From IMG/VR virus record IMGVR_UViG_3300030118_004595, positions 9,261-29,581 of that record: DNA of 20,321 nucleotides; one strand, given 5' to 3'. Under the pieces are notes generated by a model. That model ran no database searches and was not told where the DNA came from. It saw only the letters and a list, made by a program, of their open reading frames with translations. Below, in pieces: positions 9,146 to 20,321 of this stretch. The stretch's first letter is position 1, and each line of letters opens with the position of its first letter. Both the position numbers and the translations under genes were made by a program. Source of the DNA: a virus.

Positions 9146-9549
9146 TGCTTGGGCTTTGGCTTTTTTTCGTTTGCAGTTTCAGGGGTTCCAAAAGAAATCG
9201 CCATATGCTCACTAAATAATTCCAAAGCTTTTTGCATTCCTGTCGCGTCACCATCTAACATATCAGCAATATCATCTGAAGTGTATTTAAAATCTACTCC
9301 AGCTCTTCGGTGACCTTCTTCAGTACCTGCAAAAATTAATTCAACAATATCATCTAAACTTAATTGTGTTCCAAGATTAGATAACTCCGCTAAACTAGTT
9401 CCGGTTTTTCTGCAATATTTTCTTAAAGCATTAAAACCAAAGTAACATGGTAAATCTTTTTTACCAAGTTTTACAATTTCATATTTCATTTTTTCGTATG
9501 TTTTATGAAGTCCAGCAGAGGTGAAATCATACGAAATGAAATCACCCAT
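9136..9549 (-). CDS. Tail assembly chaperone, proximal (gpG-like) protein
   Basis: This 137-residue protein lies between the tail tube and tape measure genes, the standard position of the gpG-type chaperone. It is largely helical (LHKTYEKMKYEIVKLG; LSLDDIVELIFAGTEEGHRR) and ends in a basic, proline-lysine tail (KKPKPKQKK). Its last codons are CAG AAA AAA TAG, a slippery A run right at the stop, and the -1 frame continues into the next gene. It would be made both alone and as the N-terminal part of a longer fusion. It acts in the cytoplasm during tail assembly and is not expected in the virion. The family assignment rests on position, size and the frameshift layout. Confidence 0.82.
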   Translation of the reverse strand: MGDFISYDFTSAGLHKTYEKMKYEIVKLGKKDLPCYFGFNALRKYCRKTGTSLAELSNLGTQLSLDDIVELIFAGTEEGHRRAGVDFKYTSDDIADMLDGDATGMQKALELFSEHMAISFGTPETANEKKPKPKQKK

Positions 9550-13022: not shown

Positions 13023-14297
13023 TTATGCTGTTATCGAACCTCTACAGAATGACTTAGCTCTTCTAAATACTGAGTCCCAGAAAGAGTTAATTACTATTCT
13101 TACCTCACCAGAAATTGACTGAGAATAAGGGTCTACAACAACATCTAAAGCGTTACCAAATTGTCCAATAACTAAGTCAGAAAATTGTCCGAATACAATA
13201 CCTGTTTCAGAACCACCGGAAGTTGCAGCACCTCCAGCCGTACAAGCGTCAGAAATATTATTTGTAACTAATACTCTATAACCATTCATCATATTATCCA
13301 TTCCTAATAGTGGAGCACCATAACCAGTTTGAGTAGATGTTACACCTGGTTGACCAACAATTTGCTTTAATATTCCTCTTCCTTTAGAAGATGTTATATA
13401 AGCACTTCCTTCAGCGTTGTTTCCAGCTATATCTGTTTCCATTTCAATCATCTTAGCTAAAGTAGCAGTACCACCAGAAATTGATTCACTAGCTTGGTCG
13501 AATATACCAACTGGCTCAGCACCTGTACCATCAGAGTCAGAAAGTATCGCAGCTTCTAATGCAGCAGCAATAGCTTTATTCATATCGTCTCTTATAATAG
13601 ATTCAATATTTCCAACCTGCGCCATTAACATTTTTGAAATATCCATATAAGCAGCTAATTTATGAGGTGTTAAAGTTGAACCTCCAACTGCTGTAGCAGC
13701 GTCAGGTGCATTCGTAGTTTCACCAACAAAACCAGCTGTAGTTCCTGATAATACAGGAAGCTGAACTTTGCTTGATAATCCAGTTAAAAATGTTGCGCCT
13801 GCGTCAGCTAAAACTAAATGGTTCTGTAAAGTACCCATCCAGTCATTTACGTCTGTTGCAATTAATTCATTTGCGTCAGCTGTAGTTTGAGGGTTTGTTC
13901 TTGCAAGTACACCAGTAGGTAAAGCTAAACCAGAAAAACCTGGGTTGCTTCTTTTTGCCTCTACGTGCATTTCTTTTTCTATTCCATCAAGACCGCCTTC
14001 AGCGAATTGATTTATTGCTTTTACTAAGTTAAACTTTCTGTGAAGTTTTACTTCTTCTTTTTCTTGTGATTTACTTGCTGAACCAGCGAAACTTGCTGCT
14101 CTCTTTAATTGAGCTTCAACTTTTTCTGCTCTTTCAATTTTCCCGTCAACCACATCAATCGACTTTAATAATTCATCAACTGAATCATTTTCGTCTTTAG
14201 TTAAGTCACGCTCTTCTGTAACTGCTAAGTCTTTTATTGCTTCTAGCTTAGCCATTACGTCAGCACGTTCCTCTTTTAATGCTATCGAATTTTTCAT
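13023..14297 (-). CDS. Major capsid protein (HK97 fold)
   Basis: This 424-residue protein forms the head shell. Residues 1 to about 85 are a charged coiled coil (ERADVMAKLEAIKDLAVTEE; DGKIERAEKVEAQLKRAAS), the delta or scaffolding domain typical of HK97-type precursors. It is probably removed by the protease encoded next door; the boundary is likely near residues 110-120 (EAKRSNPGFSG), which is inferred. The rest has the fold's usual features, such as LALPTGVLARTNP, KVQLPVLSGTTAGFVGET, DDMNKAIAAALEAAIL and IVFGQFSDLVIGQF. The gene begins three bases after the protease stop and is followed by a strong terminator. No sign of truncation. Confidence 0.95.
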   Translation of the reverse strand: MKNSIALKEERADVMAKLEAIKDLAVTEERDLTKDENDSVDELLKSIDVVDGKIERAEKVEAQLKRAASFAGSASKSQEKEEVKLHRKFNLVKAINQFAEGGLDGIEKEMHVEAKRSNPGFSGLALPTGVLARTNPQTTADANELIATDVNDWMGTLQNHLVLADAGATFLTGLSSKVQLPVLSGTTAGFVGETTNAPDAATAVGGSTLTPHKLAAYMDISKMLMAQVGNIESIIRDDMNKAIAAALEAAILSDSDGTGAEPVGIFDQASESISGGTATLAKMIEMETDIAGNNAEGSAYITSSKGRGILKQIVGQPGVTSTQTGYGAPLLGMDNMMNGYRVLVTNNISDACTAGGAATSGGSETGIVFGQFSDLVIGQFGNALDVVVDPYSQSISGEVRIVINSFWDSVFRRAKSFCRGSITA

Positions 14298-14300
14298 AAT

Positions 14301-15386
14301 TTACTTCTTTTTTTTGATTATTTTTAATTTTAATTCTAACAAGTTTCGACTGATTAAATCGATTTCTTCTTCCTTTTTTTGTTGTTTTTCTTTTTCAATA
14401 GCCAAACTTCTTTGAGCTACTGCTAAATCATTTGCGTCAGGATATGCCGGAATTGACACCGGAGAAACGTCATAAAGTCTTTTAACTTTAGTAATGCTTC
14501 TTACATCAACACCGTTTTCTTTTGCCCACGAGTCACCTTGAACCGTAAATGCAAATGAACTTTGTGTTATATCTCCTCTTTCTAAAGAAACTAATAAGTC
14601 TCTTCCTGAAGTTGTATTAGGCACATCAAACTCATATTTTAAACCTTTATCATCAACAGAAAGTCTAAGTGTTCCGCTAGAACTTCGTGCTAATAAATGA
14701 TTTGGGTCGTGGTTAAAAAACGCGCGAACATCATTTTCTAATACATCATCAAAAGCTCCTGGCAATATTCTTTCTTGAAAACCACCTAAGTTTTCTGATA
14801 ATCTATTGAAAACAGCTGCGTGTCCTACAACCACTGTATTTTCGTTTTCATCTGAATTTCTTTTTTCTAAAGAAATATCAAAAAATCTTTTTTCAGTAGT
14901 ATTCATATTATCCCATATATTAATATTATTCTTTTTTTCTTTCATTGCTTCTTTGACCGGGTGTCCGTTAGGTAACAGGTCCGTGTCATGTTTACCTCCT
15001 CTAAATTTTCCTTTTTTAATAGCATATAAAAAACTATTAACTCGTGCAAGTGCCCAGCTTGTTTGATTCATTCCTGGTCTTACTGATGAAGGATTATTAG
15101 TAAAAGCCCCCTTGCCTCTATCAAAAACTTTTTCAAGTTTTGCATATGTTACTTTTAAGTTCCAACTTTTATTTAAATCTTTTACTTCTTCATTATGGTC
15201 AGTAACTTTTTTTTGTAGTGCTTTTTTATTTTTTGCACTTATAGCTCTTTTAACTTCATCAAATTTTGTTTCACAAATTGCATATCGTTGTTTATTGTCA
15301 TATTCTTTTTTCATAGTATCGTCTGACATACAACGGTCCATAAACTTTTCTTTAGTTTCGTTTTCGTTTGGTTTAGGAATCGGCAT
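14301..15386 (-). CDS. Prohead maturation protease (HK97 gp4 type, family U35) with N-terminal extra modules
   Basis: This protease cleaves capsid precursors inside the procapsid. I prefer the ATG at 15386 (361 residues; MPIPKPNENETKEKF is a recurrent phage opening and overlaps the portal by only 14 bases); an ATG at 15446 adds 20 residues. Protease residues start near 161 (MNTTEKRFFDIS) and include RAFFNHDPNH with H226, GDITQSSFAF with S276/S277, and DVSPVSIPAYP, giving the expected His and Ser of the family. Before it are two additional modules: residues 1-45 (RCMSDDTMKKEY, ICETKF) and about 70-145 (KLEKVFDRGKGAF, RPGMNQTSWALARVNSFL). The C-terminus is a lysine-rich coiled coil. An internal ATG at 14906 could give the protease alone. 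Confidence 0.9.
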   Translation of the reverse strand: MPIPKPNENETKEKFMDRCMSDDTMKKEYDNKQRYAICETKFDEVKRAISAKNKKALQKKVTDHNEEVKDLNKSWNLKVTYAKLEKVFDRGKGAFTNNPSSVRPGMNQTSWALARVNSFLYAIKKGKFRGGKHDTDLLPNGHPVKEAMKEKKNNINIWDNMNTTEKRFFDISLEKRNSDENENTVVVGHAAVFNRLSENLGGFQERILPGAFDDVLENDVRAFFNHDPNHLLARSSSGTLRLSVDDKGLKYEFDVPNTTSGRDLLVSLERGDITQSSFAFTVQGDSWAKENGVDVRSITKVKRLYDVSPVSIPAYPDANDLAVAQRSLAIEKEKQQKKEEEIDLISRNLLELKLKIIKKKK

Positions 15387-17229
15387 TTTCTTCTTTTTTA
15401 ATTTGTGCAACTTTTTTTCTACTCCAAGCAAACCCTGGGTCTCCACCCCATAAAGCCCATGCTATTCTTCCTGCTGACGGATAACCCTCTTCTCCTTGTC
15501 TAAACCCTTGAGCTTTTTTATCAACCTCGTGTCTACTAAAAAAACTAAACATTCGTTTTATTGATTTAAGTGAAAGGTCTCCATTAATAATATCTCTAGC
15601 TCTTGAAACTCCAACCATTGTACCACCTCTATTAAATTCTTTTCGCCACTCTAAACCTTTTTTAGCTTCTCTAACCATTCCTGCTGTAGGTGTTCTATCA
15701 ATATCAGCTAAAGCACGTTCCCCATAATTATCATCTTCTTTTTTACATTCGTCTTCAGCACAATCTTCTGTACAATGTTCTTTGCAATCGTGGTCTTTAT
15801 ATTCTTTTTTCTTTTTCTTATGATGATTTCTATCTAAAACTTCTTTTGCTTCTTCATGGTCTGCAAACGGCATATAATAAGTTTCTCCGTCTACAGTGTG
15901 CTCATGAGCTGTTGGAGGGTCACCACCAAGCTTTTCAGCTTCAGCTATAGCTTCTTCTTCATTATCAAATAAAGGCAGCTCTAAACCTTCTGTAATTAAT
16001 GAACCTATTTTTGCTCTTAGTTCTTTTCTTTCTTCTGAAGAATTATCATCATCTGTTATTGGTTCAAGATTAGAAGGTAAATATAAAATACCACCATTAT
16101 CAACTTTATTCATGTTTTCTTTTTCACGAACTTCGTTAATAGTCATTGCTCCTATTTTAACCATTTTTTCATAAAATGTAGCTCTATCATTTGGACTTCC
16201 TCTTAGTAAAGAGTTTGCGTCAAAGTTTGTGAATACTTTTCCTTGTTCGTCTGCTCTAAATAATTTTAAATTCATTTCTGCTTCCATATTAGATAAATAA
16301 GGCATAACAGAATAACGCACGAATTCAGTTGACTGTTGTTCTATATTGTTAAATGAAGATTTAGATAAATCTTTTAACATATGCGGAGGAAGATTAAAAA
16401 CACGAGCTACTTCTTGAATAGCCATATCTCTGGAAGATAAAAATTGTGCTTGTTCATTTGAAATAGATACTTGCTGAAACTTTAATCCTTCTTCTAATAT
16501 TAAAGTTTTATTTGCGTCATTTAAAGAAGCATATTGTTCTTGAAAACTTCTTCTTAGTCTTTCTATCGCTAACTCTGACATTTGTCGGTCTGTAGATAAT
16601 ACCCCACTTAATTTTGCCCCATTGGAAAAAAACGTATTTCCATAAGTTTCTACAGCTAATCCCCATCCTATAGCATTTTTACATTGACTAATAGGACTAA
16701 CTCCCTGATAACCGTCGACAGATAAAGATTTGAAATGCAAAATATCTTTTGAACTATACGTTGTGTTTTTTGTTCTGTCAGTATAGTATAAGTCATTTTC
16801 ATAATGTTTTATATTTATGTTTTCTGGTTTTAAACAGTATAAGCTTATAGGAATTCCAGAATTATTTCTTTCAATATATACGTATGAATTTCCATGCAAG
16901 CATAAATCGACTATAACTTTTGAAAAGAAATCTATTTTAGTTTGATAGTGGTTTGGGTTTAAAGTTAAGATTTTTGAAAGCGCATGGTCATCTCTTTTTA
17001 TAATATTTCCGTCTGCTTGTCTTTCACATATTTCAATCGGAATTTGAGAAATACTTTCACTTAATAATTTTACAGCACAAAAAACCGGAGTAAAACCCAA
17101 TGCTGTTTTTGAGTTAACTACAGCTCCTGAAGCAGCGTTTGCGAAGAACCTTTTAGGGTCAATATAACTCTTTGTTGAACGTTTTTCTGATGCTGTAAAT
17201 ATGCTTGTTATTCTGTCTAAAATACCCAT
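15373..17229 (-). CDS. Portal protein (HK97 type) with C-terminal extra modules
   Basis: The portal is the twelve-subunit ring through which DNA enters the head. The ATG at 17229 (MGILDRI, 618 residues) is chosen because the predicted transcript start would leave almost no leader for the ATG at 17241. Numbered from 17241, residues 1-390 are the HK97 portal core (TPVFCAVKLLSESISQIPIE, LHGNSYVYIERN, GYQGVSPI, VFNLPPHMLKD). Then follow a module at 425-470 with AEAEKLGGDPPTAHEHTVDG and YYMPFADHEEA, a charged Cys/His stretch (C486, C490, C494, C499), and a module at 515-606 with GLEWRKEFNRGGTMVGVSRA and YPSAGRIAWALWGGD. These modules are not part of a normal portal. Their function is unknown. Confidence 0.92.
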   Translation of the reverse strand: MGILDRITSIFTASEKRSTKSYIDPKRFFANAASGAVVNSKTALGFTPVFCAVKLLSESISQIPIEICERQADGNIIKRDDHALSKILTLNPNHYQTKIDFFSKVIVDLCLHGNSYVYIERNNSGIPISLYCLKPENINIKHYENDLYYTDRTKNTTYSSKDILHFKSLSVDGYQGVSPISQCKNAIGWGLAVETYGNTFFSNGAKLSGVLSTDRQMSELAIERLRRSFQEQYASLNDANKTLILEEGLKFQQVSISNEQAQFLSSRDMAIQEVARVFNLPPHMLKDLSKSSFNNIEQQSTEFVRYSVMPYLSNMEAEMNLKLFRADEQGKVFTNFDANSLLRGSPNDRATFYEKMVKIGAMTINEVREKENMNKVDNGGILYLPSNLEPITDDDNSSEERKELRAKIGSLITEGLELPLFDNEEEAIAEAEKLGGDPPTAHEHTVDGETYYMPFADHEEAKEVLDRNHHKKKKKEYKDHDCKEHCTEDCAEDECKKEDDNYGERALADIDRTPTAGMVREAKKGLEWRKEFNRGGTMVGVSRARDIINGDLSLKSIKRMFSFFSRHEVDKKAQGFRQGEEGYPSAGRIAWALWGGDPGFAWSRKKVAQIKKEENADS

Positions 17230-17251
17230 AAAATTCTTCATTTGCTACTTG

Positions 17252-19806: not shown

Positions 19807-20247
19807 TTATTTTACTTTTCCACAACATTCACATTTTTCTTTTTCGTTTTTATCCTCGTCTACATCATCAACAGAATAAAATAATTCTTTTTCTTCAAAG
19901 CCCCAATCGCTTAAACTATTATAATCAAAATTATTAGCTAGCATATCAAAGTCCCAACCCCCGGTATTTTTATTTAAACGAATATTTAATTCTTGTTCAT
20001 GCTCTAATGATAAATTTAATTCAACAACAGGAACTGTTCTTTTACCTAACGACTTCCATACTCTTGTTCTTTGATGACCTCCGATAATTATATTATTTCT
20101 TTCCGGGTTTTTATTAATAATAACTGGGTCAACAAAACCAAAGCGCTCTAAAGAATTTTTTAAATCTTCAAATTGTTTTTTTGAAAGTGTGCGAGGATTA
20201 TAATCAGCAAACCTTAATTCATCTATTTTATATTTTTTTATTTCCAT
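19807..20247 (-). CDS. ParB-like nuclease/CTPase-fold protein with cysteine-rich end
   Basis: The ATG at 20247 (146 residues) is chosen over an upstream TTG (20268) that overlaps the preceding reading frame. Residues about 1-90 form a ParB/sulfiredoxin-type domain: IDELRFADYNPRTLSKKQ, the ligand loop IIIGGHQRTRVWKSLG, and LNIRLNKNTGGWDFDML. This domain, often fused to or beside adenine/cytosine DNA methylases in phages, binds nucleotides or DNA. The tail (DFDMLANNF, DWGFEEKELF) is the type linked to methylase partners. The C-terminus CECCGKVK has three cysteines and may be half a zinc knuckle. It precedes the terminase genes; roles in DNA modification or packaging are inferred. Confidence 0.82.
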   Translation of the reverse strand: MEIKKYKIDELRFADYNPRTLSKKQFEDLKNSLERFGFVDPVIINKNPERNNIIIGGHQRTRVWKSLGKRTVPVVELNLSLEHEQELNIRLNKNTGGWDFDMLANNFDYNSLSDWGFEEKELFYSVDDVDEDKNEKEKCECCGKVK

Positions 20248-20264
20248 AGCTATAAAACCCAAAC

Positions 20265-20321
20265 TCAAACCAGTTTCAGTTCAGGGGGGTATTGTGAATT
20301 TTGACATTGTGCACAGAAAAA
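20265..20321 (-). CDS. C-terminal end of an upstream gene (partial)
   Basis: Eighteen codons are open to the window edge and end in TGA at 20265-20267. They read FFCAQCQNSQYPPELKLV, containing a CxxC pair that could bind metal. A second frame over the same bases is also open (ending FTIPP) but looks less protein-like. The region is too short to identify a family, and the call is tentative. Confidence 0.3.
   Translation of the reverse strand, partial: FFCAQCQNSQYPPELKLV

Follow-up and report, generated by a model that had tools for sequence, protein, structure and literature searches.

An unnamed five-helix module on a viral portal protein, its other head-protein carriers and its bacterial homologues

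Background

The internal proteins of phage T4 are accessory proteins located inside the head. In phage P1, DarA-Hdf are described, in the available part of the source, as lining the inner head and touching the DNA (PMC12810830), and thus an arrangement in which accessory proteins lie near the DNA within a head exists. Polyvalent and MuF effectors are accessory domains carried on portal or MuF proteins of terminase-portal phages, for which packaging and delivery have been predicted (Iyer et al. 2017, PMC5512222). Here we describe the C-terminal end of the portal protein encoded by a 20,321 nucleotide (nt) stretch of viral DNA, positions 9,261 to 29,581 of IMG/VR record IMGVR_UViG_3300030118_004595; this whole stretch is referred to as the window. 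A first-pass annotation had proposed that the portal protein ends in an extra module. This module is real, widely distributed and unnamed, and it has both an unusual rule for its carriers and an unexpected tie to bacterial operons with promoters of stress type.

The portal module

The portal gene (15373..17241, minus strand) encodes a protein of 622 amino acids (aa) with an HK97-type core at residues ~29-383 and two C-terminal modules, and all of the portal motifs quoted at first pass are present in this open reading frame (ORF; 17241..15373, minus strand). PF04860 matched residues 53-376 with an E value of 5.8e-101 (338 bits, curated cut-off 39), and phrog_12 covered residues 2-512 in the PHROGs scan. 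The core aligned to the HK97 prohead II portal (8cez_A) over residues 29-383, with a Z score of 28.5, 351 aligned residues and a root mean square deviation (rmsd) of 8.0, and the HK97 portal 8fql aligned to residues 41-386 of the model. The residues of 8cez and 8fql that take part in these alignments end at 398 and 397, respectively, and the module has no counterpart there. The closest HK97-type portal alignments stop by window residue 383-401, with a few remoter rows extending to 425-429.

The module itself lies at 15382..15708 (minus strand), portal residues 512-620 by predicted fold and 517-618 by profile match, so that the range of 518-622 first assigned to it was correct to within a few residues. 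Folded alone with AlphaFold using 116 sequences, it was predicted to form a compact five-helix domain with a predicted local distance difference test score (pLDDT) of 96.9 and a predicted template modelling score (pTM) of 0.88. The full-length portal model, built from a 40-sequence alignment (mean pLDDT 78.6, pTM 0.50), contains linkers below pLDDT 50 at residues 391-401, 411-420, 485-491 and 493-504, with a small module at ~421-483 between linkers, followed by residues 511-620; in the latter every ten-residue block has a pLDDT of 91-97 except 571-580 and 581-590. This model comes without inter-domain error values, and the relative placement of the portal parts is not measured by it. By these predictions the module is confirmed as an independent domain, separated by low-confidence linkers from the portal and outside its crown. 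The claim that it is dispensable to the portal fold held up as well, since in the set of related viral loci the 38 complete portals that have no module measure 390-505 aa and the 25 that have this one 514-843 aa.

In the PHROGs scan, phrog_2859 (listed as function unknown) matched residues 511-619 with an E value of 8.2e-30, over profile positions 158-269 of 740. Given this match and the presence of a relative in at least 599 of 600 pattern-matched IMG/VR stretches, chance does not account for the module. All 116 aligned module members matched phrog_2859, the window with an E value of 6.5e-31. This PHROGs v4 family contains the module, but its profile has 740 positions, of which the module accounts for ~110, and the domain is neither delimited nor named in it. 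No similarity to a well-known portal extension was found, and no named Pfam or NCBIfam domain was matched: Pfam searches with the 116 members gave a best E value of 0.009, scattered over families, with no model covering the module, and no NCBIfam model scored above its cut-off with the fragment from the window, with six small module-bearing proteins or with the protein of locus L012. A profile search of PDB sequences with the module gave no match at E values up to 1, and Foldseek found no PDB match at E ≤0.001 (best E value 3.0). The best VIA structural match, in a comparison restricted to chains ranked by Foldseek, was a designed protein (Z 5.3, 84 aligned residues, rmsd 3.7), which is commonplace for helical models. 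The literature search, chiefly of papers outside subscription journals, returned no title or opening abstract describing the module.

Two possible relatives were considered. DUF5824 was not a relative of the module by hhalign comparison among nine module profiles, in which only the pair of HxHMP and DUF3721 exceeded 20% (67%), leaving a common origin of the modules otherwise unsupported. DUF3140 (PF11338) had no match among the 116 members, and DUF3140 sequences from which a profile could be built were found in 0/41 and 0/6 genomes, a search in which the control was silent. Conservation within the module family is high, with 17 invariant positions over the 116 aligned members and 30 positions at which at least 95% share the same residue. 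The predicted isoelectric point (pI) is 10.1 for the window copy, with medians of 9.7 for phage and 9.9 for bacterial copies.

Carriers, position and copy number

The viral set consisted of the best 80 IMG/VR loci plus the window, giving 81 loci with 82 module copies, and was scanned with head-domain and module profiles built in this analysis. A second viral scan gave 77 further loci, many overlapping contigs of the first set; these serve as examples only and are not in the counts. For 71 of the 82 copies the profiles detected a head domain in the same ORF; the copy is C-terminal to a portal domain in 29 cases and N-terminal to a protease domain, a capsid domain or both in 42. The other 11 comprise eight copies in truncated ORFs, two in the module-only protein of L012 and one in L075, where a lambda-type portal (PF05136, residues 55-340) was missed by the profile built here and the module, at 518-619, is again C-terminal. 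None of the 82 copies was found ahead of a portal domain, between protease and capsid domains or behind a capsid domain. The same side rule applies to carriers of different types, namely HK97-, lambda- and Mu-type portals and S78- and XkdF-type proteases; L194 is perhaps an S77-type protease carrier, on a match (E value 0.0019) that scores below the curated cut-off. The proposal that the module recurs in structural proteins of unrelated phages was thus borne out by its presence on portals, proteases and capsid fusions.

Six other module types obey this side rule, counted as copies beside a detected head domain in the same loci: DUF5824 (36/36), HxHMP (17/17), RCM (9/9), Tudor (7/7), YPNEH (6/6) and GCH (2/2). 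WGGD, HxHMP, RCM, YPNEH and GCH are labels coined in this analysis. A single copy of the module was found in 44 of 45 whole records, many of which are fragments, and a tandem pair in the remaining one. Loci with complete portal and protease genes had one module copy in 32/32 cases, and these 32 loci never contained two of DUF5824 (present in 14), HxHMP (7), RCM (6) or Tudor (3). Since loci were chosen for having the module, a count of one mainly says that two were not seen.

The carrier changes between loci. A module tree of 176 rows and 107 columns was obtained by a quick search that left 76 of 167 inner branches open; on it, the portal-side versus protease-side label requires at least 13 changes by parsimony over the 94 rows with either state, and the starred branches alone force four changes for the portal label. 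Carrier states were set by hand for L007, L040, L054, L067, L075, L085, L088, L089 and the phage and plasmid copies standing alone, and 14 of the 176 rows have no carrier state. A Pfam check of hand-set states identified L088 as an XkdF-type protease, as assigned, and gave a weak DUF2213 match for L085 and none for L089, so that the states of the latter two rest on annotation or on our own reading. The portal-borne module of the window groups with the protease-borne modules of L002 and L003 (Shimodaira-Hasegawa-like approximate likelihood ratio test, SH-aLRT, 91). The same module set is split differently between neighbouring genes in different loci: DUF5824 stands between the portal and protease genes of L077 as a gene of its own, lies on the protease in the window and is found on the portal in many relatives, and in L251 the portal carries a Tudor domain and the protease the module.

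Among 50,697 phage records, 30 matched the module, with hosts including Vibrio, Roseobacter, Synechococcus, Pseudomonas and Halorubrum. In HRTV-4 the module is found within a protein that its record names portal and Mu gpF-like, although Pfam recognises neither part at an E value of 0.01. The jumbo phage PaBG encodes a free 110-aa copy (L084:3492-3824), annotated as a putative DNA-binding protein, that adjoins topoisomerase subunit genes and has no annotated head gene in the 7.3 kb examined; in its available part, a jumbo-phage survey names PaBG only for a topoisomerase (PMC7824862). BFVD, a collection of predicted viral proteins, gave 59 structural matches to the module at E ≤0.001, and the 50 matches listed include proteins named portal, prohead protease, XkdF, Mu gp29, major capsid fragment, Tudor protein, HAD-like, ParB/sulfiredoxin and Dps. 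The last three names mean that the module may not be confined to head proteins.

Other arrangements were also seen. L063 (2816-4138) and L221 each have, alongside a capsid gene that lacks the module, a second capsid-like gene that carries it at the N-terminus. A 2,553-aa ORF, open at its start, on a contig of a Burkholderiaceae metagenome-assembled genome (L152:1-7659) has the module at residues 2006-2099, which suggests a large multidomain protein.

Bacterial homologues and the Tudor partner

A scan of species genomes gave 344 relatives in 396 stretches, and 80 loci were taken from it for analysis. In 61 of these the module is a stand-alone gene; among the remaining 19, a portal, protease or capsid domain was detected alongside the module in the ORFs of 15. 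The N-terminal extensions of many solo proteins were considered as possible fusions and set aside, as they seem to be artefacts of the longest-ORF rule. The bacterial solo copies form approximately one group on the tree (two changes), which is silent on the direction of transfer.

Forty-two of the 55 alphaproteobacterial solo loci have a Tudor/DUF2945 gene within 900 nt on the same strand, 32 before and 10 after the module gene. The PF11160 (Hva1_TUDOR/DUF2945) cut-off was passed by all four bacterial neighbours tested (L172, L116, L120 and L122, with E values from 2.2e-16 to 2e-21), of which L120 is verrucomicrobial. When the neighbours of 47 bacterial solo genes were clustered, the Tudor gene formed the only cluster that recurred while abutting on the same strand (11 loci at the sensitivity used); the remaining clusters were rejected because they looked like lineage synteny or opposite-strand ORFs.

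The DUF2945 domain, which is not homologous to the module, is an operon neighbour in bacteria and a fusion partner in phage head proteins. Fusions of the two were found in 9 of the 81 viral loci and in five phage-like loci of the genome scan. Six phage fusions were searched with PF11160, and five passed (L103, L106, L023, L072 and L234, with E values from 1.9e-5 to 3.1e-13); the sixth, L031, scored 23.8 bits against a cut-off of 24.1, missing it by 0.3. A protein of Vibrio phage 150E35-1 (L090:3351-3734) annotated as DUF2945 was rejected as a Tudor fusion, since it contains the module but no Tudor domain by PF11160 or by our own profile. Genes that adjoin in one setting and are fused in another usually encode functional partners, and because the module and Tudor domain are neighbours in bacteria and fused in phages, they probably act together. 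Phage proteins with the order GCH-Tudor-module and no head domain were observed at L200:3236-4381, L234:3014-4336, L238:3176-4321 and similar loci, and L200, L213 and L234 contain the stretch CWDGYVQRGMKPG...PNCVP.

Upstream of the bacterial genes, a GGAAC-N15-19-GTT motif of the EcfG form was found within 300 nt of the first domain in 30 of the 55 loci, mostly 62-123 nt away. In controls it occurred in 216 of 14,813 random windows and, for the other ORFs of these loci, in 15 of 546 upstream regions (Fisher P of 1e-24 against the latter control, ignoring relatedness). The EcfG motif has been described as GGAAC-N17-20-GTT, enriched within 100 bp of starts (PMC6599016, in part). The 30 motif-bearing loci carry 14 distinct labels by record title, 12 of which are genera. 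These promoter-like sequences suggest that induction of the bacterial module-Tudor gene pair depends on the general stress sigma factor.

Proposed role and alternatives

In known HK97-type phages the interior of the prohead contains both the C-terminal side of the portal and the prohead protease, which cleaves itself and neighbouring proteins. We propose, at about even chances, that the module is a stress-type accessory domain that is fused to a head protein in order to enter the prohead and that acts in the virion or in the new host. Fusion to an interior-facing end of a head protein, here the portal C-terminus and in relatives the N-terminus of the protease or of a protease-capsid polyprotein, would place the module in the prohead, from which position the prohead protease could release it. 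Because either end would reach the same compartment, carriers would be interchangeable and one copy would be enough. In the head the module would perform the same job as the free bacterial cytoplasmic homologues paired with the Tudor-like DUF2945, which may be the binding or protection of nucleic acid, or of a nucleic-acid-bound partner, either within the virion or soon after the DNA has been delivered. A role with nucleic acid is our leading guess because of the mostly basic domain (pI 10.1 in the window), the Tudor partner and the stress control. The P22 portal barrel is putatively directed inwards (PMC4992974), and SPN3US has a prohead protease that cuts head proteins and ejects many packaged proteins on infection of its host, into which they pass (PMC10052503).

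The free forms in bacteria and in PaBG argue for an activity that is independent of the head. Taken together with recurrence off the portal and with carrier swaps, they favour a job that does not depend on the carrier over a role in assembly specific to the portal. More broadly, and only tentatively, the module, with its Tudor partner, could be a core item of a common kit of small domains, taken from the bacterial general stress response or given to it, that many tailed-phage lineages, including an archaeal one, place on the interior-facing end of any convenient head protein in no more than one copy each, the domains being freed within the capsid by the prohead protease and either preserving the genome or entering the new host along with it.

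Several observations weigh against the proposed accessory role. Of the 55 alphaproteobacterial loci, 25 have no EcfG motif and 13 have no Tudor neighbour, and the module was found in just two of 289 genomes of the class, one of them being the search centre, in a sample where for many genomes scoring covered just 16 candidates. The loci behind the position and copy-number counts were picked for carrying the module, and many of them are related. Blocks 571-580 and 581-590 reach a pLDDT of only 59 and 75 in the full-length model, compared with a mean of 96.9 for the module alone, and no structural match of the module in the PDB comparisons points to a function. Net charge ranges from -5 to +12 over 80 phage copies and from -12 to +17 over 61 bacterial copies, and with such wide variation uniform DNA binding is not possible. 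Finally, several free phage copies are near head genes, which is also compatible with a role in assembly.

Such a role is the chief rival, possible although on balance doubtful: the module would be a docking tag of the prohead core that joins portal, protease and capsid precursor through a shared partner and is removed at maturation. Where the module stands beside a head domain, it is only on co-assembling prohead proteins and at their presumed inner ends, the portal and protease genes are adjacent, several module types use these ends, and some of the free phage copies adjoin head genes. However, one copy per genome on a single carrier is ill-suited to joining several proteins, the set includes 38 complete portals that lack a module altogether, and the free forms in bacteria and in the non-head region of PaBG would need another function. 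The stoichiometry would also have to span from ~12 copies on a portal to hundreds on a capsid fusion, judging from general knowledge of such phages.

It is less probable, and in our view unlikely, that the module is an ejected effector of the polyvalent kind, freed by the protease, that enters with the DNA and mimics a host protein to disarm stress or defence systems. Accessory domains with predicted injection on portal or MuF proteins are an established theme (PMC5512222), the HRTV-4 module lies within a protein annotated as portal and Mu gpF-like, and the host homologues resemble stress genes. Against this, Pfam and PHROGs scans found no known effector domain in the window, the main text of the polyvalent paper names neither DUF2945, tudor nor DUF5824 (PMC5512222), and bacterial genomes carrying the homologue are rare.

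A by-product of genome organisation, in which the portal-protease junction tolerates insertions and small domains hitch-hike without any function in the virion, is very unlikely. The seven module types at these ends, the overlap of portal and protease genes in the window and the occurrence of DUF5824 as a free gene at the same spot in L077 would all fit it, but the 17 invariant positions in 116 members, the 30 positions with the same residue in at least 95% and the sequence kept through repeated carrier switches argue for selection on the module itself. That the module is an ordinary portal extension, part of the crown or barrel, is hardly credible and was rejected on the full-length model and the alignments to solved portals. 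The module does occupy the C-terminal end of the portal, the region that builds crowns and barrels such as that of P22 (PMC4992974), but the closest HK97-type alignments end by residue 383-401, very low-confidence linkers (391-401, 411-420 and 485-504) precede it, and the same domain occurs on proteases, on capsid fusions and alone.

Other features of the window

The first-pass annotation left out a second small portal module, HxHMP (15841..15960, minus strand; residues 428-467; E value 8.5e-14 with a profile built here from the same stretch), and the low-confidence linkers on either side of it. HxHMP contains AHEHTVDGETYYMPFADHEE, and its block has a pLDDT of 75-90 in the full-length model. 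By profile it is weakly related to a DUF3721-like stretch of L012 (the hhalign probability of 67%, from a one-sequence DUF3721 seed). Ahead of the five-helix module is a linker rich in Cys, His, Asp and Glu (15709..15792, minus strand; residues 484-511), mostly of low model confidence, whose Cys/His-rich sequence DHDCKEHCTEDCAEDEC appears by eye to be possibly metal-binding.

The prohead protease gene (S78; 14301..15386, minus strand) was identified by PF04586 (E value 7.5e-47) and TIGR01543. We propose ATG 15386 as its start in place of the longest-ORF GTG 15446, giving an overlap of 14 nt with the portal stop. The protease begins with an RCM module of the QRYAIC type (15255..15386, minus strand; E value 5e-24, profile built here from the same stretch), followed by a DUF5824 module N-terminal to the catalytic domain (14970..15242, minus strand; PF19141, E value 1.5e-6, 28.9 bits against a cut-off of 25). 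The major capsid protein gene (13023..14297, minus strand; PF05065, E value 1.1e-26) had no module detected with the profiles built here. Upstream of the terminase genes, a 153-aa ORF (19807-20268, minus strand) appears by eye to be ParB-type nuclease-like.

Sequences like DUF5824 were found in 189 records, 183 of which are Salinibacter ruber M8 phages, and the proteins of these phages are called 'hypothetical protein' among the 40 matches listed; the literature search found no paper on DUF5824, and for DUF2945 it gave only the 2019 Pfam paper. The 618-aa module-only protein of L012 (3559-5412), which has no head domain, combines a DUF3721-like stretch, two copies of the portal module, a DUF6582-like stretch and DUF5824. 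Long module-bearing phage proteins were seen at L186:891-3164 and L194:3986-6217, with DUF6582 and a zinc ribbon, and at L229:3986-5974, with DUF5872. The DUF6582, zinc-ribbon and DUF5872 domains are further types of such bead-like modules.

Comparison with known systems

An unnamed domain of hundreds of environmental viral contigs is now delimited, with a rule for its attachment (behind the portal or ahead of the protease, once), and a phage domain is tied to a bacterial gene pair that looks stress-induced. As a practical consequence, marine-phage genes named 'major capsid protein' or 'prohead protease' can start with unrelated small domains. An unannotated tail end has also become a testable question, namely whether stress-type proteins are stored in the capsid by fusion to inward-facing head proteins, and the delivery model proposed above is offered in that sense.

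The proposed likeness to P1 DarA-Hdf is that of accessory proteins kept in the head near the DNA, as described in the available text (PMC12810830). DarA-Hdf and the T4 internal proteins are separate gene products, whereas the module is fused to the portal or protease, and they are likened here by description only. The polyvalent and MuF effectors have an arrangement in common with the window module, which is likewise an accessory domain fused to the portal of a terminase-portal phage; Pfam and PHROGs detected no enzymatic or anti-restriction effector domain in the same polypeptide. In the available text, polyvalent domains are mostly enzymes (PMC5512222), whereas the module is an unnamed helical domain that is also found at the N-termini of proteases and capsid fusions and that has bacterial homologues behind apparent stress promoters.

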